Positions 12,189-26,329 of a stretch of DNA of 46,752 nucleotides are shown here, piece after piece (positions within the stretch are counted from its first letter, which is position 1; every line of letters begins with the position of its first letter). The stretch lies in the NCBI RefSeq assembly GCF_030539555.1, contig NZ_JAUNXX010000009.1:1-46752 (forward strand), in the 5' to 3' direction. Made by a program: the position numbers and the translations under genes. Below the pieces are notes generated by a model that saw nothing but the letters and a program-made list of their open reading frames with translations, searched no databases and was not told the DNA's origin. Origin of the DNA: Methanobrevibacter sp. GTDB lineage: Archaea; Methanobacteriota; Methanobacteria; Methanobacteriales; Methanobacteriaceae.

Positions 12189-12905
12189 TTACAGTTTTAC
12201 ATTAAATTCGTTTGTTTCAACAATTTCCGGCAACTTCCCTATTGTAGCGATGTTTTCATCTGAAATTATGAGTATTCCTTCATAAAATTCCCTGAAGTTT
12301 TCAGCTGTCTCCAGTGCGTTTGTGATTTTATCCTGTGATGTTTCACCGTTTACATCATTGGCAATTCTTGTTGCGAGTCCGTCGGCAATTGAAGGGCTTT
12401 TGCCTATTACTGTTACGCTGTCTGCACTTCCAAAGCTTATTGAATGGCCGATTTTACCTGATGATGTACATATTCCCAATTGTCTTTTTCTGGGCTTTAT
12501 TTTAAAAGCTATGCTGTTTCCTAAAATCCTGTTGTTGGAATATATTCCGCAAAGCGTTGTCGTATTGTTTATCAATGCAATGTCTCCGCCATTTTCGACT
12601 ATTGAATTTTTTGAGCCTTTTTCAATTAGATAATCCAGGGATAGCTGGGATATTGCACCGGCAACGCATGCCATGGGACCGACATCAGCTTTGAGTGATG
12701 ATTCATGCATTGTTTTAACAATCAACGGCAAATTTTCATCAATTAGATTAAGCGGTTCAAGTGAAAGCAGAAAATCTTCGTTTTTAACGATATAATTTTT
12801 CAAATCAGACCTTAATGAGTAAATGCAGTGTTTTAAATCGTGCTTTGATAAGTCTGTCCTGAGGCGTATATGTGTTTCACCTAAGTCAATCTCCTCATGA
12901 TTCAT
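12189..12905 (-). CDS. UPF0280 family protein (ApbE-like fold)
   Basis: The 238-residue protein fits the UPF0280 family, related to ApbE flavin transferases. It shows [32 protein letters not shown], and [26 protein letters not shown], the last like the ApbE active region. ApbE proteins transfer FMN onto Thr or Ser of target proteins; whether UPF0280 does so is not known to me. It is divergent from comA with about 180 bases between them. The methanogen distribution and this position hint at a cofactor role but do not prove it. Confidence 0.85.
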
Positions 12906-13086: not shown

Positions 13087-13860
13087 GTGAAATCCTTTGA
13101 ATTTTTATCTATTGAAAGAGAAGAAAAGCCAAGAAAATGCGGAATAACAATGGTTTTGGACAAAGGTATGGGTCTTGAAACCGCATCAAGTTTAATGGAC
13201 ATTTCCGGTGAATATGTGGACTATTTAAAATTCGGCTGGGGAACATCAATAGTGCATGAACAAGACATTATAAAAGCAAAAGTCGAAATGTACAAGTCTC
13301 ATGAGATAACTCCTTACACCGGAGGAACATTATTCGAACTTGCTTATAAAAACGACAAAATATATGAATTTTTTGATGAAGCCCACAAATTAGGTTTTCC
13401 GGCAATAGAAATATCAGACGGATCATTGGTCATCCCTAGAGAGGATAAATTAAACTGCATAGAAATGGCTAAAAAAGATGGTTTTGAAGTATTGTCTGAA
13501 GTGGGTAAAAAAAATCCTGATTTGGATAAGGAATTGTCTTTGGATGAGAGAATTGAATTCATGCAAGATGAACTGGATGCTGGGTCATCCCTAATCATTG
13601 TCGAGGCAAGGGAAGGCGGAAAAAACATTGGTATTTTCGATAAATCCGGAAATGCAAAAGAAGATGAAATAGATTATATTTTGGATAGTTTCAGGGGAGA
13701 TAAAATTCTTTGGGAAGCTCCAAACAAAGACCAGCAGGTCTTTTTCATATTGAAATTGGGAAACACTGTTAATTTAGGAAACATTTCAAGTGATGATATC
13801 ACCTCTCTTGAAACATTAAGAAGAGGATTGAGAGGGGATACATTAGGCAAAATCCAGTGA
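13087..13860 (+). CDS. comA: (2R)-phospho-3-sulfolactate synthase
   Basis: The 257-residue enzyme adds sulfite to phosphoenolpyruvate, the first step of the PEP route to coenzyme M. ComA-type motifs include KCGITMVLDKGMGLETASSL, YLKFGWGTS, TPYTGGTLFELA, FPAIEISDGS and EAREGG. GTG at 13078 and at 13087 are both in frame. The earlier one would be the start if the upstream GTGAT is not the ribosome-binding site; I prefer 13087 because GTGAT precedes it. The stop TGA overlaps the ribosome-binding site of the next gene. comD and comE lie at 25.1-26.1 kb on the other strand. Confidence 0.93.
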   Translation: MKSFEFLSIEREEKPRKCGITMVLDKGMGLETASSLMDISGEYVDYLKFGWGTSIVHEQDIIKAKVEMYKSHEITPYTGGTLFELAYKNDKIYEFFDEAHKLGFPAIEISDGSLVIPREDKLNCIEMAKKDGFEVLSEVGKKNPDLDKELSLDERIEFMQDELDAGSSLIIVEAREGGKNIGIFDKSGNAKEDEIDYILDSFRGDKILWEAPNKDQQVFFILKLGNTVNLGNISSDDITSLETLRRGLRGDTLGKIQ

Positions 13861-13869
13861 GGCTTTAAA

Positions 13870-15120
13870 TTGAACGAAAGAACTATTGACCAGATCAATA
13901 AAAAAATTGATGACGGCGAAGCTAATATATATACTGCAGAGGAGTTTAAAAAGCTCATAAAAAATGATGAAGCGCCAAGCTTTGAAGAGGTGGATGTGGT
14001 TACATGCGGAACCTGTGGGGTAATGAGTGGAACTGCTGCCGTACTTAACTTCATAGTGTCCGAACCGGGTGAATTCATAAGAGCCAGAGAAGTATACTTG
14101 AATGGAGTTCCGGCATATGCAGGACCATGTCCAAACGAATGGCTGGGTTCGGTAGATGTGATACTTCACGGAACCGCCCATTCGATTTATGATGAAAACT
14201 ATGGTGGAGGATTCTTGCTTAAGGAAATTCTCGAAGGCAGAGAAATTGATGTGCGTGTGGAAAGTGTGGATGGAAAAACCATAGAAAACAAAATCACTCT
14301 TGAGGATATCACAAGAGCACAGATAATAGGTTGCAGAATGGCATTTAAAAATTATACAGCATTCACAAACCCAAATGTTGAAGCGGTTTCATCAATATTT
14401 GCGGCCATTCCTCTGGAAGGTAACTTGTCCGGGCTGACGTTTTCAGGATGCGGTGATTTGAACCCTCTTCAAAACGACATTCCTCATAATGTGATTAATG
14501 AAGGCAAGAAAGTCCTTATAAATGGGGCTCAAGGATATATTTTAGGTGACGGTACCAGATCAAGTGCTGAAAAACCAAACCTGATGCTTACAGCTGATTT
14601 ATGCAATATGGATCCATATTATGTTGGCGGATTTAAAACAGGTCAGGGTGGGGAGGTATATGACACTGTGGCTATTCCAATTCCCGTTTTAAATGAGAAT
14701 ATTTACAATAATCTATTAATCCGAGATGAGGATATTGACCTGCCTGTAGCAGACATTAAAGGCCGCCATCTGCCATTGGACAATACCAACTATAAGGAAA
14801 TGTGGCAGGATTATGATTTGAGACCGAAATTCAACGATTCCGCATGCGGTAAGTGTGATAAATGTGTTGTGGAAGATGTATGTCCTACAAATGCATTTAA
14901 GAGTGAAAGGCTCAATCTGGCATACTGTTTCGGTTGCGGAATGTGTGCACATTACTGTCGCCACAATGCATTTAATATGAACACCGGAGATGTTGATTTG
15001 AACATCAACGGAAAAGATGTCAATGTTCCGATAATATGTAGGCAATCCGACAGATTAAGAGCAAATAAATTATCATTGAAGTTAAAGAAAATGATTGAAA
15101 ATAAAGAATTTAAATTGTAA
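13870..15120 (+). CDS. methanogenesis marker 16 metalloprotein (candidate ComF)
   Basis: The 416-residue protein combines a DUF39-type domain, seen as VTCGTCGVMSGTAAVLNF and GPCPNEWLGSVDVILHGTAHS, and FSGCGDLNPLQND, with two ferredoxin-like clusters at the C-terminus. These have Cys326-x2-Cys329-x2-Cys332-x5-Cys338 and Cys353-x2-Cys356-x2-Cys359-x3-Cys363. DUF39 proteins with ferredoxin parts insert sulfur in homocysteine synthesis. As I recall, a Methanocaldococcus homologue was reported to turn sulfoacetaldehyde into coenzyme M. The position right after comA fits that. It starts with TTG, with GTGAGG upstream overlapping the comA stop. Confidence 0.82.
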   Translation: MNERTIDQINKKIDDGEANIYTAEEFKKLIKNDEAPSFEEVDVVTCGTCGVMSGTAAVLNFIVSEPGEFIRAREVYLNGVPAYAGPCPNEWLGSVDVILHGTAHSIYDENYGGGFLLKEILEGREIDVRVESVDGKTIENKITLEDITRAQIIGCRMAFKNYTAFTNPNVEAVSSIFAAIPLEGNLSGLTFSGCGDLNPLQNDIPHNVINEGKKVLINGAQGYILGDGTRSSAEKPNLMLTADLCNMDPYYVGGFKTGQGGEVYDTVAIPIPVLNENIYNNLLIRDEDIDLPVADIKGRHLPLDNTNYKEMWQDYDLRPKFNDSACGKCDKCVVEDVCPTNAFKSERLNLAYCFGCGMCAHYCRHNAFNMNTGDVDLNINGKDVNVPIICRQSDRLRANKLSLKLKKMIENKEFKL

Positions 15121-15132
15121 TGGGATGGTTAT

Positions 15133-15744
15133 ATGACTACTCAAAAGATTACGGACACTCCGATTGAATTTGCAGAAGACATTATTTCTGATGTTAAGAA
15201 TTCAAAAGAGGATGGTGTTTTAAAATGTGTGCAGTGTGGAATGTGCACATCAACATGCCCGGCTGCGCGTCATTCGGACTATAATCCTCGTGATATAATT
15301 GAAAGGGTCTTGGATGGGGATATTTCAATTTTAAAAGACGACAATATTTGGAATTGTTTTTACTGCTATACCTGTCATAGCGTATGCCCAGTCGGAAACA
15401 GCGTATGCGAAGTTAACCAAATACTTAAGCAATTCGCAATCAGCAAAGGCATAGGCTATGATAAATTATATGAATATATGGGATTTGCCGACAGTTACTT
15501 TACCGCAGCTATTGGAGCAATTCCGGAAATATTTTTTGAGGATATTGCAAATGATGTTCCCGGATGGTGGGAATTCAGACAGAATTTGGGCGAAATAAGG
15601 GATGAGCTGGAACTTGAACCACCACTGATGCCATCAAAAGAAGTCATTGGTGAGGTAAGTAAAATATTGACCATAACTGGCTTTAAAGATAGGATTGATA
15701 AGATAAGAGCATCACAGGAGGAAAAAAATGAAGGAGATTCCTGA
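15133..15744 (+). CDS. HdrC-like iron-sulfur protein
   Basis: A 203-residue paralogue of heterodisulfide reductase subunit C. Two [4Fe-4S] motifs are complete: Cys32-x2-Cys35-x2-Cys38-x3-Cys42-Pro and Cys75-x2-Cys78-x2-Cys81-x3-Cys85-Pro. The C-terminal 110 residues form a helical extension, so the protein looks longer than a typical HdrC, with FTAAIGAIPEIFFEDI and many acidic residues. HdrC passes electrons between the flavin-containing HdrA and the active-site subunit HdrB. It ends 17 bases inside the next gene, which is HdrB-like, so the products likely form one complex. Confidence 0.88.
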   Translation: MTTQKITDTPIEFAEDIISDVKNSKEDGVLKCVQCGMCTSTCPAARHSDYNPRDIIERVLDGDISILKDDNIWNCFYCYTCHSVCPVGNSVCEVNQILKQFAISKGIGYDKLYEYMGFADSYFTAAIGAIPEIFFEDIANDVPGWWEFRQNLGEIRDELELEPPLMPSKEVIGEVSKILTITGFKDRIDKIRASQEEKNEGDS

Positions 15745-16669
15745 TAAAAACATACTTCTATTCAGAAGCTGCTTAGTCAGCGTGGAATATCCCGGTGTCG
15801 AATCGTCTACAAAATTTGTGTTCGACAAACTTGGAATCAATTACGCAATTTCAGAAAAGCAGACCTGCTGTACCGGCCTTGGACATTACTCTGATGTCTT
15901 TGACCAGGTTTCCACATCAGCTATCGGAGCCCGTAACTTCAGGATAGCAAAAGAGCTTGAAAGACCAAACCTTGTCATGATGTGTGCAACATGTTATGCA
16001 ATCAACAAAAAATCAGTCAAGCTGTTAAATAAAAAAGACGACTTGAGGGAAAAAATCAATAAACTTTTTGATGAAAATGGTTTGGCTCATCTGAAATATG
16101 AAAAGGGCGACCTGAAACCTACAGAAAACATTTTCCATGTGGTGGATATTTTATATAATAAAATTGATGAAATTCCGGATAAAATAAAATATGATTTAAG
16201 TGGTTATACCATAGCCACTCACCATGGATGCCATTACTGTAAAGTTCACTATGAGGATACGATTGGTGGAGTAAGAGATCCTCGTATTATGGATGATTTA
16301 ATTGAAGCATGCGGATGCAAAACTATTGGTTGGTATGACCATAAGAGGTCAACATGCGGAACAGGATTCAGACAAAGATATTCTAACAGGGAACTGTCAT
16401 TCAGTGCAACAGCAGATAAGATGAATGCGATTGATGATGAGGACGTTGATATTCTTGTCCATTTATGTCCTAATTGCCATATTCAATTTGACAGGTACCA
16501 GCATTTAATTGGTGAAAGGGAAGGCAGAAAATTTAAGGCAATTCATTTAAACATCACCCAATTCATTGCACTTGCGATGGGTGGCGATCTGGACAAGGTA
16601 ATCGGTCAAAAAGCACATACAGTACCGATTAATTCTATTATTAAGGAATTGAAGGAGGTTGAAAAATGA
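15728..16669 (+). CDS. HdrB-like protein with a modified second CCG domain
   Basis: The 313-residue protein is a CCG-domain protein like HdrB. The first CCG motif is intact: Cys15, Cys47-Cys48, Cys86-x2-Cys89. The second has Cys168, then Thr209-Cys210-Gly in place of Cys-Cys-Gly, and Cys247-x2-Cys250. Extra cysteines are at 171, 195 and 197. Classical HdrB binds two noncubane [4Fe-4S] clusters that split the CoM-S-S-CoB disulfide; the altered second site suggests a different substrate or only one active cluster. The start has a strong AGGAGG. It overlaps hdrC by 17 bases and the hdrA-like gene by 4. Confidence 0.87.
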   Translation: MKEIPDKNILLFRSCLVSVEYPGVESSTKFVFDKLGINYAISEKQTCCTGLGHYSDVFDQVSTSAIGARNFRIAKELERPNLVMMCATCYAINKKSVKLLNKKDDLREKINKLFDENGLAHLKYEKGDLKPTENIFHVVDILYNKIDEIPDKIKYDLSGYTIATHHGCHYCKVHYEDTIGGVRDPRIMDDLIEACGCKTIGWYDHKRSTCGTGFRQRYSNRELSFSATADKMNAIDDEDVDILVHLCPNCHIQFDRYQHLIGEREGRKFKAIHLNITQFIALAMGGDLDKVIGQKAHTVPINSIIKELKEVEK

Positions 16670-18972
16670 GGGATGATTTGAAAGTTGGCGTGTTTTTATG
16701 TGAATGTGGTGGAAATATTGCAGATACAATAGATTTGGATGAGGTAAGAGATGCATTGGATGTTGAATTTATTGGACAGTTTGAAAATCTATGCTCCTTA
16801 AACGGCCGTAAGATAATCCGTGACGCAATATTTGATTATGATCTTGACAGGGTTGTTGTTGCAGCATGCTCACCGATAAGCCATGAAAAAACATTCCAGG
16901 ATTACGTAAAACCTCTAAACCCTTATCTGATGGACATGGCAAACATAAGGGAACAGTGTTCATGGGTACATTCGGATAAGAAAAAGGCCACTCATAAAGC
17001 CATTACATTAATTAATGCATCAATTGAAAAAGTCAAACAATCTGATGCTGTAGATCCGATCTATTGTCAGACACCAAAGGAAGTTGCGGTAATAGGAGGA
17101 GGAATTGCGGGAATGAACGCCGCATTGTCCCTTGCAAAGCAGGGAACAAAGGTTACAATAATAGAGAAATCCCCCTCAATCGGAGGGCATATGGCTAAAA
17201 TTGGTAAGGTATTCTCACCAGTTAAAATTGCTGAAGAATGTGGAATGTGCCTTTTAAACCCAATATTAAATGAGCTTGTCTGGAATGAAAACATTGAGGT
17301 ATTGACAAATGCAAAAGTGATTGAAGCTGAAAGGAGAGCAGGAACATATAACCTCATAGTAGAACAGTCTCCAAGATATGTCGACCCTGAAAAATGTATA
17401 GCATGCGGCAAATGCGCCGAAGTGTGTGAAGTGGAAGTTCCAAACGACTGGAACGACAATCTTTCCATGAGAAAAGCAATTTACAGGCCTTTTGGCCAAT
17501 CATATCCCGAAGCATATGTCATTGATATGGAAAACTGTTCAAAATGTGGGGATTGCTTTAGGACATGTAACATGAAAGCAATCAAGCTTAAAAGAAAGCC
17601 TGAAAAATTATTATTGCAGGTTGGCTCAATTATCGTTGCAACAGGCCATAAGTTATTTGATATGGAAAAACGTCCTGAATACGGATATGACAGATATGAT
17701 GATGTGATAACACAGTCAGAACTGGGTCGTATCACAGGTGTAAACGGCCCAACCAAAGGAAAACTTCTTAAGGCAAATGGTGAAGTTCCAAAACGTGTTG
17801 TAATGATTCAATGTGTGGGGTCACGTGATGAAAAACCTGATGGACATAAATACTGTTCAAAAATATGCTGTACGGTAGCCCTTAAGAATGCAAACATAAT
17901 CAAACATAAATATCCTGATACTGATGTTTTAATCTGTTATACAGATATCAGAACGCCGGGAATGTTTGAAAAATACTACAAACACACCCAGGAAAATGAA
18001 GTGAGATTCCTGCGTGGAAGACCTGGTGAGGTAGTCAAAAAAGGAGACAATTTTATTGTTAGGACAGAAGATACTCTTAAAGGAGAATTTGTAGAAATTG
18101 AAGCTGATATGGTAGTACTTTCAACAGCAATGGAACCATCTGAAGGCACATGTGAAATTGCAGAAATTTTGAACGTTGGAACCACAGAAGATGGTTTTAT
18201 TAAGGAATCTCACCCTAAAATCAAACCTGTAGCTACCGATGTACAGGGAATTTTTGTATGTGGAACTGCACATGATCCGAAAGACATAACGGATTCGATT
18301 ATGCAGGCGACAGCAGCTGCCTCAAAAGTTTCAGAATACAACTACGGTGGTGTTGAAATCGAACCGTTCATTGCTGAAATCGACAAGGAAAAATGCATTG
18401 TCTGCGGAGAATGTATTGCGAGATGCAAATACAAATCCATGAGCATACAGGATGATGAAATTTACATTGATCCTATGAGCTGCACAGGTTGCGGAAAATG
18501 CCTTGTAGGATGTAACCAAAGAGCAATTACAGTAAACGGTAACATTGATGAAAAGATATTGTCCACAATTAATGGGGTATTGTCTAAAAAACAAGAAGGC
18601 GAACGCATGATTCTGGTGTTCCTGGATAATATAGGATATACTGCCGCCGATAACATTGGAGTTAACAGATTGTCCTATCCTGAATCAATACATATCATCA
18701 AGGTAATTTCTGTAAATAGGGTAAGGCCAAAACATATTAGATATGCACTTGATAATGGTGCTGACGGTATATTTATTGGTGAATTCCCTGGAGATTTGAT
18801 GTATGATGAGGTGGAACGTAAAATCCAAAGGGTTAAAGATAGAATTTCCGAAATGGGTCATAATCATGAAAGGATTACATTTTCAAAAGTTTATATACCC
18901 TACTTCTCAGGTCTTGCTCGAAAATTCAATGATTTCGATAAGAAAATCGCAGAGCTGGAAGAAGGAAAATAG
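16666..18972 (+). CDS. HdrA-like flavoprotein fused to a cysteine-free MvhD-like domain
   Basis: The 768-residue protein has the N-terminal HdrA domain with VGVFLCECGGNIA, an FAD-binding GGGIAG at residues 144-149, ECGMCLLNP near 194, an inserted cluster motif CIACGKCAEVC, a second CSKCGDCFRTC, and two C-terminal clusters CIVCGECIARC and CTGCGKCLVGC. Residues about 646-768 align with MvhD/FrhD (VNRLSYP, RVRPKHIRYALDNGADG, FPGDLMY), yet the usual Cys pairs CNWC, MCSGR and CHPGDC are replaced by DNIG, ISVNR and FPGD. It is coupled by ATGA to the HdrB-like gene, with GGAGG upstream. Likely it accepts electrons and passes them to HdrC. Confidence 0.9.
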   Translation: MRDDLKVGVFLCECGGNIADTIDLDEVRDALDVEFIGQFENLCSLNGRKIIRDAIFDYDLDRVVVAACSPISHEKTFQDYVKPLNPYLMDMANIREQCSWVHSDKKKATHKAITLINASIEKVKQSDAVDPIYCQTPKEVAVIGGGIAGMNAALSLAKQGTKVTIIEKSPSIGGHMAKIGKVFSPVKIAEECGMCLLNPILNELVWNENIEVLTNAKVIEAERRAGTYNLIVEQSPRYVDPEKCIACGKCAEVCEVEVPNDWNDNLSMRKAIYRPFGQSYPEAYVIDMENCSKCGDCFRTCNMKAIKLKRKPEKLLLQVGSIIVATGHKLFDMEKRPEYGYDRYDDVITQSELGRITGVNGPTKGKLLKANGEVPKRVVMIQCVGSRDEKPDGHKYCSKICCTVALKNANIIKHKYPDTDVLICYTDIRTPGMFEKYYKHTQENEVRFLRGRPGEVVKKGDNFIVRTEDTLKGEFVEIEADMVVLSTAMEPSEGTCEIAEILNVGTTEDGFIKESHPKIKPVATDVQGIFVCGTAHDPKDITDSIMQATAAASKVSEYNYGGVEIEPFIAEIDKEKCIVCGECIARCKYKSMSIQDDEIYIDPMSCTGCGKCLVGCNQRAITVNGNIDEKILSTINGVLSKKQEGERMILVFLDNIGYTAADNIGVNRLSYPESIHIIKVISVNRVRPKHIRYALDNGADGIFIGEFPGDLMYDEVERKIQRVKDRISEMGHNHERITFSKVYIPYFSGLARKFNDFDKKIAELEEGK

Positions 18973-18981
18973 TACGGTGAT

Positions 18982-19017
18982 GTTTAGTTTTTTTCTAAAC
19001 TAAGCATTATTTTTTTT
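18982..19017 (+). terminator. terminator after the comA-hdrA-like cluster
   Basis: GTTTAG (18982-18987) pairs with CTAAAC (18995-19000) and is followed by TAAGCATTATTTTTTTT. It closes the five-gene transcript and separates it from the adhesin gene at 19072. Confidence 0.6.
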
Positions 19018-19071: not shown

Positions 19072-22000
19072 ATGTTTAAAAAAATAATCTTTGCCCTAAT
19101 TATACTCATAATAGCTATTTCATCAGTCAGTGCAACTGATATTAACTCGACATGTGATGAATATAGTAATTTTAACATGATTTCAAATAATATTTCTGAT
19201 GTTAGTCTCACTGAGTTCGATGATGTGGGACTTGCTGACACGGATTCTGATGCATTGGCAGCAGCAAAAACAGTTTATTTTGATGCATCAGCAAGTACGG
19301 ATGGGTCAGGTACCAAATCAAATCCTTATAAATATTTATACAGCGGAAGGATTACATCCGGCATGACAGCTTATTTTGCTAATGGGGTATACTCGTTTTC
19401 AGGCACTGGAAAAATTGGGTATAATTCATTATACAAAACCACTTTCATTGGGCAAAGTAAAGATAAAACAATTATTCGATCCACTGCAAGTTATTCGTTC
19501 GATTTAATTGTTTCATCAAATTCAAATTTAGTTTTAAAGGATTTAACATTTGACTATGGTCATATTGTAAACAGTGGAAATGTCGAAGCGGAAAATGTCA
19601 TATTCAAGAATTCAGTGTGTTCATACACTTCTACAAGTTCTTCTGTAGGATCATATTCCTGCGGCGGAGTAATATACAGCAATGCTTCAAAAGGAAGTAC
19701 ATGTTCCATAAATCTTAAAAACTGTAATTTCCAGTCAAATGAAGCAAAACATGGCGGAGTTATATCTGCAAACTATACAAATATCGTAATAACAAATTGT
19801 GTTTTCCAGAATTCCATATCAAACAGGTCAGGTGGTGCGATTTATAGTTTAAATTCAAACATAACTATTTCAAAATCTTCATTTACTAGGAATAATGCGA
19901 AATATGGTGGTGCAATTTATAGTGAAAAGGGTATAATTAAGCTGATAGATTCAAATTTCACTTCATCACAGGCATATAGCTTTGGTGGTGTAATAGCTTC
20001 TCAATTATCCAATATATCATCAAGTAATTGTATATTTTATAATTATAATTCCCTAACCGATTCGGGTGGTGCAATTTATTCTGATAGGGGTTCTGTAGAT
20101 ATTTCAAAATCCACTTTTAAAAATGGTGTGGCTGATTTTGGTGGTGCAATATGTGTTTTAAATGTAGGTTTAACAGTTTCAAACTCTAATTTCCAAAACA
20201 ACACTGCAAACTATGGCGGAGCCATCTATAACATATATAAAACTGTTTATATTTACAACACCAATTTTAAGAGTTCCACTGCATACCTTTATGGTGGTGC
20301 AGTCTGCAGCTATCTTGCCGATTCAATCACAATAAAAAATAGTGTTTTCGTTAGTTCAGATGACATGTATATCTTTGCAAAATCAACAACTAAAATTGTT
20401 CAAAGCGGAAACAGCGGTTTAACAAATGTTAAAACTGTTAATACTACTATATTGACAGTATCCCCTAATGTTGTTGCTCCAATAATCAATTATTCACCAT
20501 CATCTCAAAATTCAATTCCATCTTACTATAATTCTAATGACTACGGCTATGTCACTCCAGTTAAAAATCAGATGGATGGAGGAAATTGCTGGGCTTTTGC
20601 GGCTATTGCAACATTGGAAATCTGTCTTAAAAAAGCAACTGGAATCACATATGACTTTTCAGAAGAAAACATTAAAAACCTCATGTCAATCTATTCGTTA
20701 GTTGGAAGAGACCAGTATCCCAATAAGGGAGGATTGGACAATATGGTTTTCGGATATCTGACAAGCTGGCTGGGTCCGATTAATGATAATCTGGATGTTT
20801 ATGATGATTATTCTGCATTGTCCACAATATATTCTTCTCTTTTGCATATCCAAAATATTTATTTCCTGCCGGTTCGAGCAGATACAAGCGATAATAATGC
20901 TATCAAAAAGGCCATAATGGATTATGGTGCCGTTGCCGCCAGTTATGCTTGGACTACAAGTTATCATTCAGTCACTCTTGTCGGCTGGAATGATAATTAT
21001 AATGCTAAGGATTACTTTGGAAATTATGCTAAGGGAGTATGGATAGTAAAAAACAGCTGGGGATCTGATTCAGACGATAACGGTTATGTATATATTTCAT
21101 ATGACAAGAACTTTAAATATGAATCATCCAATTATCATAACTATCTTTACACATTCATTTTCAATGATGCCGAAGGTTATTCAAGGAACTATCAGTATGA
21201 TTTGAATAGTGTAAATTATTATGAAACTTCATCAAGTAATGGGGTTAAATATAAAAATACATTTGTAGCACAGGATAATGAAATATTGTCCGCATTCTCT
21301 ACAGTGTTTAAGGAGCCGACAAGCTATAAGGTTTCACTTTACAAGGGAAATACTTTGATTTTGACTCAACAAGGATACAGTCAGGCAGGATACTATACAA
21401 TTCCATTCAATACTAAAACAACATTATCTAAAGGCGACCAGTTCACAATATGTATTGAAAACCTGAATTCAGGAAAGAAATTTATTCCTCTTTCTGATGC
21501 TTCATATTCTAATCTGGGAAATTTCCCGAAGGGAGTCTCCTATATCAGTTTTGGAAGTAGCTGGTATGACTTATATTCACACTATAGTAAACCTAAGATT
21601 GCATGTATTAAAGCATTTACAACACCTTTGACCTTGAATGAGGTTACACTCAGCATTGATAAATTCACTAATGTTTATGTTAATGAGAAGTTGACAATTA
21701 ATTTTAAATTAAGCAATAGTAATCTGAATAGAGGTTTTGTAACTGTCAATATTGGCGATAAAACTTATTATGCAAGTGTTTATGGTGGTAAGGCCAGCTT
21801 AAAAATTAGTTTCAATGCCATAGGGTCATACAATTTCAAAGCCCAATATAAAAATAACCTTTATGCATCAAACACTGTCAGTTTTAACTTTAATGTAATC
21901 AAAACTGCAGGTGTGATATCCATTTCAGCTCCTGATGTGACTAGTTATTATGGAAGGTCCACCAAATTCTCCATCAGGTTAACCGATGATGGCCAACCTA

Positions 22001-23232
22001 TTAACGGTGCTGTTGTCAGTTATACATGCGGTTCTTTTTCAACTACTGCAACTACAAACAGCAATGGTTATGCGTATGTTTATGTTAATTTAAGTCCGGG
22101 AACATATGATGTAACATCACAATATGGCGGTAAATCAGTTAAATCCAAGATTACAGTCAAATCTACCATTTCAGCCAGTGACCTGACTTATGATTATGGA
22201 AGTTCTTATATTAAGGCCACATTTTACAATACTGCCGGAGGAGTTCTTTCCAACACTCAGGTAAAATTCCAAACTGGAATTTTAACGTATACTGTTACAA
22301 CCAACAGCAACGGTGTTGCAGTTGTTAAATTTGATAGGAATGCATCCACATATGGTGTGATTGCCATTAACCCTGTAAATAACGAGGAGAAATCATTTAA
22401 GGTAACGGTTTCAAAGGTTACTCCAATCTTAACCTTAAAGCAGATCACATTGGATGGTTATGATGCGGTAAGGGCAAGTCTGTCTCAAACATCAGCTACA
22501 GGAAATATTGTTTTCACAGTCGAGGATACAGACTATTCTACTGGAATCAGCGAAGGCATTTCAAATCTAAAAATAATTAACCGTAACGGAATCTATGATG
22601 TAACGGTTAAATATTCCGGAGATGCCAATTTCAATCCAGTTTCCAAGTCAATATCTGTTAATGTGGGCAGTTATTTAGCATCAATATCCGTTAGTGGCAT
22701 TACAAAGACCTATGGTGATTCCAAACAGCTGGTAATCACTGTTCGTGACAATCATGGTAATCCTGTTAAAGATAATTTCATAAGTGTTGATGTTTATGAT
22801 GATGATTTGGAATTCTACGATAGCTATTATTTATGGACTAATTCTAAAGGTCAAGTAAAACTTAACTGTAATTTCAAACCAGGTACATATAGTTTGGATG
22901 TTAGCAATGATGATGATTATATTAATGTGGATGTGGTTGTAAAAAAAGCCGCTTCTAAATTGACTGCAGCAAATAGGATTGTCAATGCCAAATCAAAGAT
23001 AAAAACCTATACAATAGTGTTGAAAAACAACAAGAACAAGGTTCTTAAGAATCAGAAAGTTACTTTAAGGGTTGGAGGTGTAACTTATGTTGCAAAAACC
23101 AACGGCTACGGCAAGGCAATATTTAAGATAACTAAATTAAATAGAAAAGGAACTTTCAAGGCCATAGTTAGCTATGCTGGCAATTCCTACTACAAAAAGA
23201 TTAGTAAGATAGTTAGATTCTATGTACGATAA
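19072..23232 (+). CDS. giant adhesin-like protein with papain-family cysteine protease domain
   Basis: A 1386-residue secreted protein. Residues 1-22 form a signal peptide ending in VSA. About 65-440 form a right-handed beta-helix of GGAIYS and GGVI repeats. A C1-type (papain-like) protease domain spans roughly 490-690, with oxyanion Gln500, Cys506 in GGNCWAF, His632 in YHSVTLVGWN and Asn661 in NSWG: a full catalytic set. From about 860 on come several Ig-like repeats and a C-terminal domain ending in KIVRFYVR. No obvious membrane anchor follows, so it is either loosely wall-bound or released. It lies directly after the coenzyme M cluster but is a separate transcript with its own TATA-like TTTATAAAAT. 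Confidence 0.9.
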   Translation: MFKKIIFALIILIIAISSVSATDINSTCDEYSNFNMISNNISDVSLTEFDDVGLADTDSDALAAAKTVYFDASASTDGSGTKSNPYKYLYSGRITSGMTAYFANGVYSFSGTGKIGYNSLYKTTFIGQSKDKTIIRSTASYSFDLIVSSNSNLVLKDLTFDYGHIVNSGNVEAENVIFKNSVCSYTSTSSSVGSYSCGGVIYSNASKGSTCSINLKNCNFQSNEAKHGGVISANYTNIVITNCVFQNSISNRSGGAIYSLNSNITISKSSFTRNNAKYGGAIYSEKGIIKLIDSNFTSSQAYSFGGVIASQLSNISSSNCIFYNYNSLTDSGGAIYSDRGSVDISKSTFKNGVADFGGAICVLNVGLTVSNSNFQNNTANYGGAIYNIYKTVYIYNTNFKSSTAYLYGGAVCSYLADSITIKNSVFVSSDDMYIFAKSTTKIVQSGNSGLTNVKTVNTTILTVSPNVVAPIINYSPSSQNSIPSYYNSNDYGYVTPVKNQMDGGNCWAFAAIATLEICLKKATGITYDFSEENIKNLMSIYSLVGRDQYPNKGGLDNMVFGYLTSWLGPINDNLDVYDDYSALSTIYSSLLHIQNIYFLPVRADTSDNNAIKKAIMDYGAVAASYAWTTSYHSVTLVGWNDNYNAKDYFGNYAKGVWIVKNSWGSDSDDNGYVYISYDKNFKYESSNYHNYLYTFIFNDAEGYSRNYQYDLNSVNYYETSSSNGVKYKNTFVAQDNEILSAFSTVFKEPTSYKVSLYKGNTLILTQQGYSQAGYYTIPFNTKTTLSKGDQFTICIENLNSGKKFIPLSDASYSNLGNFPKGVSYISFGSSWYDLYSHYSKPKIACIKAFTTPLTLNEVTLSIDKFTNVYVNEKLTINFKLSNSNLNRGFVTVNIGDKTYYASVYGGKASLKISFNAIGSYNFKAQYKNNLYASNTVSFNFNVIKTAGVISISAPDVTSYYGRSTKFSIRLTDDGQPINGAVVSYTCGSFSTTATTNSNGYAYVYVNLSPGTYDVTSQYGGKSVKSKITVKSTISASDLTYDYGSSYIKATFYNTAGGVLSNTQVKFQTGILTYTVTTNSNGVAVVKFDRNASTYGVIAINPVNNEEKSFKVTVSKVTPILTLKQITLDGYDAVRASLSQTSATGNIVFTVEDTDYSTGISEGISNLKIINRNGIYDVTVKYSGDANFNPVSKSISVNVGSYLASISVSGITKTYGDSKQLVITVRDNHGNPVKDNFISVDVYDDDLEFYDSYYLWTNSKGQVKLNCNFKPGTYSLDVSNDDDYINVDVVVKKAASKLTAANRIVNAKSKIKTYTIVLKNNKNKVLKNQKVTLRVGGVTYVAKTNGYGKAIFKITKLNRKGTFKAIVSYAGNSYYKKISKIVRFYVR

Positions 23233-23313
23233 GGGGAATTATATCCTCTTTTACACTTTTTTGTAAGTATTATATACTTATTTTGATATAATTATTAATT
23301 AGTATGAATACAT

Positions 23314-23319
23314 GGAGGG
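23314..23319 (+). promoter_or_regulatory. ribosome-binding site fixing a TTG start
   Basis: GGAGGG lies 6 bases before TTG 23326 and 18 bases before ATG 23338, so the TTG is the better start of the Ig-like secreted protein. Confidence 0.6.
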
Positions 23320-23325
23320 AAATTT

Positions 23326-24402
23326 TTGTCAAATAAAATGATAATACTTGTGTTGATTCTTGTAAGTTTTCTTGCAATTTCCACTGTCAGTGCACAGGAT
23401 AACTCTACTGTTGTAGAAAATGCTCAAGACAATGATTTAGACAGTCAGATTGACATACAGGAAATTACTTCAAGTGAAAACACTTATTCTTTAGCTAATA
23501 CTAATGAATCTGCAATAGGGGATGTTGAAGATCCCGGTGCATATATTTACACACCATCAAAAATTTATTATAGCTATCAAAAGGATTATGATGCTTATGA
23601 ATATGACAGCAATATAATATACGGATACAATAATCATTTCGAAGGTTATTTAAAAATCTATAATGGAAATGCTCTCATTGCTTCCCACTTCTGCAATGGT
23701 ACTGAAGACTTTGAAACAGGTTCATTTTTTGATTTGATTGATGGAAAGAAAGTGTCTTTAAGCAAATATACCTTGAAAATGGAAGATATGGATGGTAAGG
23801 TTTGGGTGTCAAAATCTTTAAATGTTGTTAAAAATCCAATAAAACTGGACTTTACCAGTTTTAAAGAGTCTGCTGAATATTCATCAGAAACTTTTTATCA
23901 GTATGTGCTGGATGAATATGGTAACAGCATTAATGATGCCAAAGGAACCATTACACTAACTTTAAATGGAAAACAATACAAAACTACAGTTAAAAACGGC
24001 AAATTCAAATTATCTTTTAACATTCCAGTAACCCCAAAAACATATGTCTGTAAAGTTAAGTATTCAGGAGATGCTAAATATCAAAGCAGTTCCAAAACTT
24101 TCAGGTTAACAATTTACAAGCCTGTTCCCAAAGTATATGCTTTAAATAAGGCAGTTAAAGTGAAATCAACTAAAATATATTCTGTAATACTTAAAAATAA
24201 TCATGGCAAAGCCATGAAGAAAGCCCAAGTTTCCTTAAAAGTTAATGGAAAAATCTACTATGCAATTACAAACAATTATGGAAAGGCTTTATTTAAGATA
24301 ACTAATATAAATAAAAAAGGAACAGTTAATGCTTTCGTGAAATATTCAGGAAGCGTAATTTATAAGCCTGCCTTCAAAACTGTCAGATTCACAGTCGTGT
24401 AG
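23326..24402 (+). CDS. secreted protein with Ig-like repeats
   Basis: A 358-residue protein with a signal peptide ILVSFLAISTVSA (residues about 12-24). The N-terminal half is acidic and Tyr-rich (about residues 50-170). It is followed by two Ig-like domains, starting near residues 180 and 270. The last 80 residues align with the C-terminus of the giant adhesin: ATTNNYGKALFKIT-like and VRFTVV at the end against VRFYVR. TTG is favoured as start because of GGAGGG. It has no beta-helix or protease. It may be a partner or a reduced copy of the preceding adhesin. The stop codon sits in a strong terminator stem. Confidence 0.8.
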   Translation: MSNKMIILVLILVSFLAISTVSAQDNSTVVENAQDNDLDSQIDIQEITSSENTYSLANTNESAIGDVEDPGAYIYTPSKIYYSYQKDYDAYEYDSNIIYGYNNHFEGYLKIYNGNALIASHFCNGTEDFETGSFFDLIDGKKVSLSKYTLKMEDMDGKVWVSKSLNVVKNPIKLDFTSFKESAEYSSETFYQYVLDEYGNSINDAKGTITLTLNGKQYKTTVKNGKFKLSFNIPVTPKTYVCKVKYSGDAKYQSSSKTFRLTIYKPVPKVYALNKAVKVKSTKIYSVILKNNHGKAMKKAQVSLKVNGKIYYAITNNYGKALFKITNINKKGTVNAFVKYSGSVIYKPAFKTVRFTVV

Positions 24403-25086: not shown

Positions 25087-25629
25087 TTAGGGTCTGATTG
25101 CATCCATAAATCTTTTTTTAATTGTAACAGGATCCAAATCAATTATTGGCGCTTTTGAGTTTCCAGGTTCCGTATCATAAACAATGAAACTTACATCATC
25201 ACTTTCGATAATTTCACGTAGGTTGATGTCTTCAAATCTATGGCTGTTTTTAAATCCAACACTTTTGGCAATTTCACACAAGTCTATTGCTTGTGCGTAA
25301 GTGTCCTGATTTCCTGTTGAGCCATATGCTCCATTGTCTATGACAATCCAAGTCAAGTTTTTAGGATTATTTGCAAATATGGTTACAAGTGAACCCATGT
25401 TCATCAGAAGTGACCCGTCACCATCAATTACAACAACATTCCTGTCGGGACGTGCCAGGGCAAGTCCAAAACCGATTGATGAGGCAAGGCCCATTGAACC
25501 AATCATGTAAAAGTTTTCTGCCCTGTCCTTTATATCATACAGTTCTCTGGATGGGAATCCTATATTGCAAACAACAATTTCATCATCAATATAATTCATT
25601 ATATCCTGAATAGCTTCTCTTCTTGCCAT
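25087..25629 (-). CDS. comE: sulfopyruvate decarboxylase, beta subunit
   Basis: The 180-residue beta subunit carries the thiamine diphosphate binding region: GDGSLLMNMGSLVTI followed by NGAYGSTGNQ, the GDG-x20-30-N pattern. MIGSMGLASSIGFGLALA precedes it, as in other ThDP decarboxylases. With ComD it decarboxylates sulfopyruvate to sulfoacetaldehyde, the penultimate intermediate of coenzyme M. It starts 5 bases after comD ends, so both are made from one transcript. The C-terminal DLDPVTIKKRFMDAI is normal for the family. Confidence 0.93.
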   Translation of the reverse strand: MARREAIQDIMNYIDDEIVVCNIGFPSRELYDIKDRAENFYMIGSMGLASSIGFGLALARPDRNVVVIDGDGSLLMNMGSLVTIFANNPKNLTWIVIDNGAYGSTGNQDTYAQAIDLCEIAKSVGFKNSHRFEDINLREIIESDDVSFIVYDTEPGNSKAPIIDLDPVTIKKRFMDAIRP

Positions 25630-25633
25630 ATTA

Positions 25634-26125
25634 TCACCAGTAACTTATTTCCAATAGTATTGAAACAGGTTTTCCTTCTTCAATGGATAACTCCCATGAG
25701 TCAAAGACGGCTCCATATGCAGCTTCGGGATTTCCGGGTTTGAAGAATCTGAAGTCCATCGCCTCCAATATTCTTGGGGTTGACTCTCCCATTGGGACTT
25801 GTCCGCAAATGTTTTCACCTTCTGTCCCCCTATGGCTCATTATCATGATGAGGGGAAATTCATATAATTGTGTCAATGATTTGAGGGCATTAATCGAGTT
25901 TCCAAGTCCTGAATTTTGCATTAAAATGGCGGTTTTCTTACCTCCCAAATAAGCTCCGGCACATATTCCGATTCCCTCTTCTTCACGGGTTACCGGAATG
26001 TGGATTATTTCATCATCCTCATCAATCATGTTCAGTAATTTTGATAGGTTAACGCATGGAACGCTTACAATAAAATCAATTCCGGCATCTTTAAGCCCAT
26101 TAAAAATAGCTTCACTACTGTCCAT
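25634..26125 (-). CDS. comD: sulfopyruvate decarboxylase, alpha subunit
   Basis: A 163-residue protein with the pyrimidine-binding half of the ThDP fold: [17 protein letters not shown], then [18 protein letters not shown], where the Glu residues contact the thiamine, and [16 protein letters not shown]. It pairs with ComE. The frame is open 14 codons further upstream, but ATG 26125 with GTGAT just before it is the natural start and matches the family length. The gene is divergent from cofH with about 200 bases between. Confidence 0.93.
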
Positions 26126-26329
26126 TGTATCACATCTAATTTTGAATATTACAATTATATAATTCATTATTTAAATAGCTATTTTGTCATTTAATATTAT
26201 TATTCTTCAATCTTTTTTTAATTTGGATATCTAATAATTCAACATTTTAATTTATATTATTGTACATTTTCATACATTTGATTTAGATTATAGAAAACTT
26301 TTTATTTATCTTGATAGTAATATATAATC

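Follow-up and report, generated by a model that had tools for sequence, protein, structure and literature searches.

The closest described relatives of the genes discussed here are heterodisulfide reductases (Hdr) of methanogens. The genes themselves, an hdrCBA-like set directly behind two genes of coenzyme M (CoM) synthesis, lie in a 46,752-nucleotide stretch of DNA from a Methanobrevibacter species (contig NZ_JAUNXX010000009.1 of assembly GCF_030539555.1), referred to below as the window. The electron-bifurcating MvhAGD–HdrABC complex resembles the window set in most HdrA cysteines, in the HdrC clusters and in the HdrB fold, but has a separate MvhD with a [2Fe-2S] cluster where the window has a fused, cysteine-free MvhD-like tail, and the window HdrB has gained one cysteine (Cys171) and lost another (Cys209). 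HdrA2B2C2 of Methanosarcina acetivorans shares the fusion of HdrA to an MvhD-like domain, although HdrA2 has one predicted Fe2S2 cluster there (PMC5296606), the cysteines of which are absent from the window domain, and the window HdrB matches another type. That type is HdrA1B1C1 of M. acetivorans (NF041778–NF041780, by family names), with which the window HdrB (541.2 bits against 177.5 for canonical TIGR03288) and HdrC (178 against 66 for TIGR03290) score far better than with the canonical models, whereas the window HdrA fits NF041778 and the HdrA2 model NF040770 nearly equally (786 and 757 bits). HdrA1 has been published without an MvhD-like extension (PMC6019823), yet NF041778 aligns the window HdrA up to residue 760, and NCBIfam models HdrA and HdrC of the Methanobacteria separately. 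The literature assigns to HdrA1B1C1 the reduction of CoM-S-S-CoB, the heterodisulfide of CoM and coenzyme B (CoB), and not the synthesis of CoM.

A second point of comparison is L-aspartate semialdehyde sulfurtransferase (L-ASST; the DUF39 protein MA1821 with the NIL/ferredoxin protein MA1822 and COG2122), which has a DUF39 enzyme and an iron–sulfur donor in common with the window set, although the substrate here is sulfoacetaldehyde and an Hdr complex would act as donor in place of a small ferredoxin protein. A COG2122-type partner is common to both only if the UPF0280 family, represented beside the window set, is COG2122, as we take it to be. Homocysteine synthesis requires the DUF39, NIL/ferredoxin and COG2122 proteins, the COG2122 and DUF39 proteins being needed for it in Desulfovibrio (PMC5764234).

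The last step of CoM synthesis is assigned to ComF, also known as MMP16 or marker 16, which is the main CoM synthase of M. acetivorans and, when taken from Methanocaldococcus jannaschii, yields CoM in Escherichia coli (PMC12068725). The reaction needs two or four electrons, depending on the sulfur species (Fig. 1 legend of that paper), and both the sulfur species and the electrons are described there as unsettled. The same paper reports that hdrABC is up in the M. acetivorans MMP16 mutant, and names an ATPase, a GTPase and a COG2000 protein as frequent neighbours; its main text mentions hdr nowhere but in the transcriptome section and the reference list. A literature search that left supplements outside its scope found no statement linking the Hdr described here with MMP16 or CoM operons. 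The protein families of this Hdr are already named in NCBIfam, and its link to CoM synthesis is apparently new. The locus offers a candidate electron donor for the last CoM step in many Methanobrevibacter-type methanogens.

The locus and its remodelled Hdr subunits

Window genes were graded by an NCBIfam profile search against the curated cut-off of each family. On the plus strand, positions 13087–18972 hold a run of comA, MMP16, hdrC, hdrB and hdrA, in the order and at the places given in a preliminary description of the stretch, and each gene exceeds its cut-off. The comA gene (phosphosulfolactate synthase, 13087..13860) scores 323.9 bits with TIGR03849 against a cut-off of 280; MMP16/ComF (coenzyme M synthase, 13870..15120, TTG start; PF01837) scores 542.3 against 363.95 with TIGR03287, over the full length of the profile (1–391 of 391), and consists of a DUF39 domain and a 2[4Fe-4S] ferredoxin domain in which the cysteines for both clusters are kept. 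These are followed by the hdrC-like gene (15133..15744; two [4Fe-4S] clusters in Fer4 dicluster domains; NF041890, 324.7 bits against 270), the hdrB-like gene (15728..16669; two CCG domains, the second remodelled; NF041780, cut-off 450) and the gene for an hdrA-like flavoprotein with a fused C-terminal MvhD/FlpD-like domain (16666..18972; NF041891, 1403.8 bits against 1300). Gaps of 9 and 12 bases separate comA from MMP16 and MMP16 from hdrC, and the reading frames overlap by 17 bases (hdrC/hdrB) and 4 bases (hdrB/hdrA). The single terminator once placed at the end of the run is weak: a 6-bp AT-rich hairpin (18982–19000) with a T-run can be made out by eye 3′ of hdrA, where a pattern scan lists none.

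NCBIfam names all three subunits ferredoxin:CoB-CoM heterodisulfide reductase, and all three are over cut-off. They nevertheless differ from a standard Hdr, as had been proposed, in a longer HdrC model (192 positions in NF041890 against 144 in TIGR03290), a relocated HdrB cysteine and the cysteine-free MvhD-like tail of HdrA. For HdrB, 120 listed homologues (the best 120 of 461 found) and 25 loci were aligned with eight canonical HdrBs. Position 171 (16238..16240, plus strand) is cysteine in all 120 and in all 25 loci, against leucine in every canonical protein. Position 209 (16352..16354, plus strand), where the eight canonical HdrBs have the first cysteine of the second CCG motif, is threonine in 118 and serine in two of the listed homologues, and threonine, serine and histidine in 23, one and one of the loci. 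The first cysteine motif is whole and the second reads TCG, the residue before Cys210 being changed, so that the window HdrB does not have the two complete CCG motifs of HdrB from CO2-reducing methanogens; five cysteines thus remain, one of them relocated. In the HdrB tree the eight canonical proteins group in a fully supported clade, separate from the window-type proteins. The predicted HdrB fold matches that of a solved HdrB (5odc_B, TM 0.82/0.88), with least confidence at or near the altered cluster (residues 169–174, 206–209 and others), so ligand geometry cannot be read from the model. The pair Cys171/Thr209 provides a signature by which this Hdr can be told from the energy-metabolism Hdr in annotation. 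No Methanosarcina is among the names shown for the 120 listed homologues, the best 120 of 461.

HdrA was compared in 39 family rows, including the window locus and near relatives, with two canonical HdrAs. The family rows keep 26 of the 28 cysteines common to the canonical pair (two with a gap in one row), and the two exceptions, at window positions 80 and 283, carry other residues. The MvhD/FlpD-like domain (18610..18957, plus strand; PF02662, 92.3 bits) has no more than one cysteine in any of the 39 rows and none in the window protein, in which the hallmark of MvhAGD–HdrABC, an MvhD [2Fe-2S] cluster feeding HdrA, is therefore absent. The scores of the window HdrA with NF040770 (756.7 bits, cut-off 1100) and with the 771-position NF041778 are both below cut-off.

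This Hdr is probably not the energy-metabolism enzyme of the organism. A canonical HdrB lies on another contig of the same genome (G000:C47; TIGR03288, 490.5 bits), and canonical-like HdrA was matched once or more in every one of 12 congeners examined, though G001 and G012 gave no more than pieces; one of the 12, G005, is without a window-type HdrA. No second HdrA was found in the window's own assembly (94.7% complete), probably through an assembly gap, given the canonical HdrB and the canonical-like HdrA of the congeners. The possibility that these are the only hdr genes of the organism, which the preliminary description had named as fatal to its proposal, was rejected on the same grounds. 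Elsewhere in the survey described below, the search for canonical HdrB gave no match in G149, and in G130 a match limited to profile positions 71–290 within a 5563-codon open frame; sequence may be masked or missing in both.

One genome, G142, carries a third HdrB (in L033), which stands on a very long branch of the HdrB tree with unsure placement, and which shows serine opposite two cysteines of the first motif. Next to an hdrC-like stretch, L033:6421-9871 also encodes an additional HdrA that has an MvhD-like tail and shares 43% identity with the window protein, and this set is another uncharacterised Hdr.

Linkage and shared presence with CoM genes

The survey covered 150 genomes of the Methanobacteriales, many of them drafts in which contig ends may hide linkage, and linkage was scored within 15 kb around HdrB. 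Matches over cut-off were found for window-type HdrB in 106 genomes, MMP16 in 122, comA in 127 and comD in 127, and the genomes with HdrB nearly always have MMP16 (103 of 106) and comA (104 of 106), so that the set is not, as it might have been, mostly found in relatives without these genes. Of the 106 genomes, 70 have one or more of the three CoM genes within that distance of HdrB: MMP16 in 69, comA in 66 and comD in 47. Linkage was seen in genera g1 (56/57), g5 (2/2), g7 (1/1), g8 (3/3), g10 (2/4), g11 (5/6) and g12 (1/1). Genus g9 counts as unlinked (0/1), G031, whose hdrB runs off the end of a contig, having been left out; in that genome hdrB–hdrC is divergent from MMP16 (L040) and another contig carries comA–UPF0280–comED–hdrA (L039).

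Gene orders vary between genera, and the linkage is thus not one frozen block. In a congener of the window organism (G010, L080) UPF0280, comA, MMP16, hdrC, hdrB, hdrA, comE and comD all fall within about 8.5 kb, while hdrC–hdrB–MMP16 adjoins thiF in L026 and L027, hdrC–MMP16 adjoins thiF in L030, and in L038 hdrCBA is divergent from thiF–MMP16 with comDE and UPF0280 adjoining. Further orders are hdrCBA–comD–comE (L043), that of L050/L051, which differs again, and two tandem copies of an MMP16–hdrC–hdrB–hdrA unit (L054:6709-18648). The two hdrA copies of the last share 92% and 80% identity with the window hdrA. The question raised earlier, whether the set stands behind comA and marker 16 throughout this order of methanogens, has a negative answer: linkage was seen in 70 of 106 genomes, and CoM genes occur in the absence of this Hdr in two families and in two genera represented by one genome each.

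In the family of the window, a table of 138 genomes that leaves out the 12 of families f2 and f3, 103 have both HdrB and MMP16, three HdrB only, eight MMP16 only and 24 neither (Fisher 5.7e-17, without correction for relatedness and therefore an overstatement of the association). The departures are mostly explicable. Those with Hdr and no MMP16 are G047 (64% complete, with a 4062-base contig) and G111 (68% complete), both weak counter-examples, and the odder G024 (95% complete, 490 contigs), which has Hdr, comA and comD with MMP16 not over cut-off. Those with MMP16 only include G031 and G086, with cut hdrB pieces, G075, with a run of N in hdrB/hdrA, G104, which has a window-type hdrA, and G112 and G129, which are 87% and 72% complete; the other two, G140 and G145, look like real exceptions.

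Completeness of 90% or more together with contamination of 5% or less is reached by 90 genomes of the order, and window-type HdrB is found in 68 of them. The 22 without it comprise the 12 of f2/f3, G140, G145, G073 (no MMP16, and a comA that lies at the end of its contig) and seven further genomes that are without comA and MMP16 too: G074 and G107 (g1), G028 (g8), and G038, G039, G043 and G049 (g11). The 14 genomes of f2/f3 with G140 and G145 all have comA, and 13 have MMP16 over cut-off (not G020). Each of the seven has one HdrA match with an E-value in the canonical range. We consider the link between this Hdr and CoM synthesis to be well supported by the several gene orders together with the phylogenetic profile.

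Some of these genomes retain other CoM genes: comD–comE persists in L073 and L075 (G074, G107) and L074 (G028), and comD of G074, G107 and G005 scores 171–188 bits against 205–230 for other full-length matches, as if decaying or reused. Passages of PMC13135261 name only Methanobrevibacter ruminantium and one metagenome-assembled genome as without the classical CoM pathway, compared with seven comA/MMP16-less genomes here, from a different set of taxa.

A candidate electron donor for ComF

To account for these associations we propose, at about even confidence, that an altered second complex of the HdrABC type, encoded in the CoM cluster, passes ferredoxin electrons to ComF/MMP16, which would use them to thiolate sulfoacetaldehyde reductively. 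Electrons would run from reduced ferredoxin to the ferredoxin-type clusters and flavin adenine dinucleotide (FAD) of HdrA, then through HdrC and HdrB to ComF; as the MvhD-like domain has no cluster, they would not come from hydrogenase through MvhD. ComF would form a thioaldehyde or a persulfide-bound intermediate, which the Hdr would convert to the thiol with two or four electrons, in parallel to the part proposed for the NIL/ferredoxin protein in homocysteine synthesis, and CoM-S-S-CoB in energy metabolism would stay with canonical HdrABC. The earlier suggestion that CoM assembly has a dedicated Hdr is upheld in part, in the link to CoM synthesis; the complex may furnish the final reaction with electrons or with a persulfide.

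Observations on M. acetivorans, a control genome with an HdrB over the NF041780 cut-off, are compatible with a biosynthetic role. When hdrABC was deleted in this organism, CoM fell from 28.2 to 16.7 nmol/mg in total and from 23.2 to 15.4 nmol/mg in its free form, its reduced fraction rose from 82 to 93% and CoB became unmeasurable, and the authors propose lower CoB biosynthesis (PMC12713407). The mutant has been described as much slower without sulfide (27.8 against 15.3 h; PMC9963511), whereas times in medium without added sulfide were 10.7 and 9.6 h in the later work (PMC12713407), so the sulfide effect is unsettled. Taken with the linkage to the CoM cluster, these data make a donor role in CoM synthesis the simplest reading; such a role, if true, would explain the puzzling deletion data, and the locus makes the questions of sulfur species and electrons testable by genetics and enzymology.

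Several points weigh against this proposal. The 12 genomes of f2/f3 (comA in 12, MMP16 over cut-off in 11) and G140 and G145 have CoM genes without the Hdr, and M. jannaschii, one of 14 controls and the source of the MMP16 that yields CoM in E. coli, has no NF041780 match. The chemistry can therefore proceed in the absence of this Hdr. Six genera have no CoM gene within 15 kb of HdrB (g6, one genome; g13, two; g14, 19; g15, five; g17, three; g18, one), though broken contigs may hide some, and G074, G107 and G028 keep comD although they lack comA, MMP16 and this Hdr. The shared absences in g1, g8 and g11 could each come from one deletion of a linked block and are thus weaker evidence than their count suggests. 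In M. acetivorans, CoM alone fails to restore growth of the hdrABC mutant, which CoM with acetate does (PMC9963511), and overexpression of com genes raises its free CoM without restoring the growth rate (PMC12713407). Family names suggest that the M. acetivorans match to NF041780 is HdrB1, and the missing MvhD-like extension of HdrA1 (PMC6019823), in contrast to the window HdrA, weakens the claim that the two are the same enzyme. Among anaerobic methanotrophic archaea (ANME), HdrA1 is reported as paired with HdrB1C1 only in ANME-3 (PMC9012536). We therefore regard this Hdr as likely to be a dedicated helper of CoM synthesis in part of the Methanobacteriales and not a universal one. A broader scheme, in which a branch of Hdr left energy metabolism and became a sulfur-insertion reductase, HdrCBA with its re-laid HdrB cluster powering CoM (perhaps CoB) synthesis and M. 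acetivorans HdrA1B1C1 being the same enzyme, seems to us conceivable but rather doubtful.

The chief competitor is an auxiliary CoM-S-S-CoB reductase that sits in the CoM operon because the supply of new CoM and the recycling of the CoM thiol are co-regulated. The NCBIfam names of the subunits, the predicted HdrB fold, which is that of the solved enzyme, and the publication of M. acetivorans HdrA1B1C1 as a heterodisulfide reductase (PMC9963511, PMC6019823) all argue for it. However, this Hdr is absent from genomes without CoM synthesis genes, although they would depend on the same heterodisulfide, and in the second non-cubane cluster one ligand has been relocated. The loss of a heterodisulfide reductase should moreover raise the oxidised fraction of CoM, and the M. 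acetivorans deletion gave the opposite, a higher reduced fraction of a smaller total (PMC12713407). We consider this explanation rather unlikely.

Other rivals keep the link to coenzyme synthesis and alter the reaction. That HdrB-type sites split S–S bonds is established, and the complex might cleave a persulfide or mixed disulfide bound to ComF, COG2122 or CoM, freeing CoM or resetting the sulfur donor, in place of reducing a thioaldehyde. A conserved cysteine of MA1821, persulfidated in vivo (PMC5764234), and the adjoining UPF0280 and ThiF-type genes would suit such a reductase, but the conserved cysteines of M. acetivorans MMP16 are dispensable for CoM synthesis (PMC12068725), so that a ComF persulfide may not exist, and we hold this version to be improbable. 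Least probable of all is a role in CoB synthesis, by thiolation of a precursor of the 7-oxoheptanoate type, or in that of both coenzymes: CoB fell below detection in the hdrABC deletion (PMC12713407), MMP16 and/or L-ASST have been proposed as possibly needed for CoB (PMC12068725), and genus g10 has two MMP16 genes, one of them beside hdrCB or hdrC, yet the genomes without CoM genes are also without this Hdr, though they would still need CoB.

MMP16 clades and neighbouring genes

The cluster ligands of MMP16 were compared between nine sequences of one clade and the other 24 rows, the window included. In all nine, one [4Fe-4S] cluster is without its four ligands, the loss being confined to these, and the other 24 keep both clusters. 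This clade (L026, L027, L030, L038, L040, L042, L044, L046 and L048) spans g7, g9, g10 (the second copy), g12 and g15, and all nine genomes also have the window-type Hdr (in G031 with hdrB cut by the contig end). Its genes have hdrC/hdrB as neighbours in g7, g10 and g9 (L040), joined in g7 and g10 by a ThiF/MoeB-type gene, and in g12 they lie next to thiF; within the stretches fetched, neither was seen beside them in g15 or in G030 (g9). The idea that the Hdr goes with one MMP16 clade only was rejected, as the MMP16 tree shows it with several. No solved structure convincingly matched the DUF39 part of MMP16, and the ferredoxin part matched weakly.

The ThiF/MoeB-type adenylyltransferase genes lie beside MMP16 and/or hdrC in g7, g10 and g12 (L026:10491-11243, L027, L030, L038:9947-10687, L044:240-989), and hint at a thiocarboxylate sulfur carrier as the sulfur donor for CoM synthesis. 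In the window, a UPF0280-family gene (12189..12905, minus strand; PRK04334 models of NCBIfam; PDB 2o34, 'Hypothetical protein') stands directly upstream of comA in divergent orientation, and the family recurs close to comA, hdrA or comDE in loci of g1, g5, g7, g8, g9, g11 and g12.

About 6 kb downstream of hdrA, on the opposite strand of the window, are comE (sulfopyruvate decarboxylase beta, 25087..25629, minus strand; its L038 homologue, 58% identical, is over the TIGR03846 cut-off) and comD (sulfopyruvate decarboxylase alpha, 25634..26167, minus strand; TIGR03845, 222.9 bits against 147.95 at G000:C7:25637-26116). They are separated from hdrA by two adhesin-like genes (1386 and 358 aa, within 19072–24402), which are absent from this position in G010 (L080). 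The first of them has, by eye, a stretch resembling a papain-type cysteine protease.

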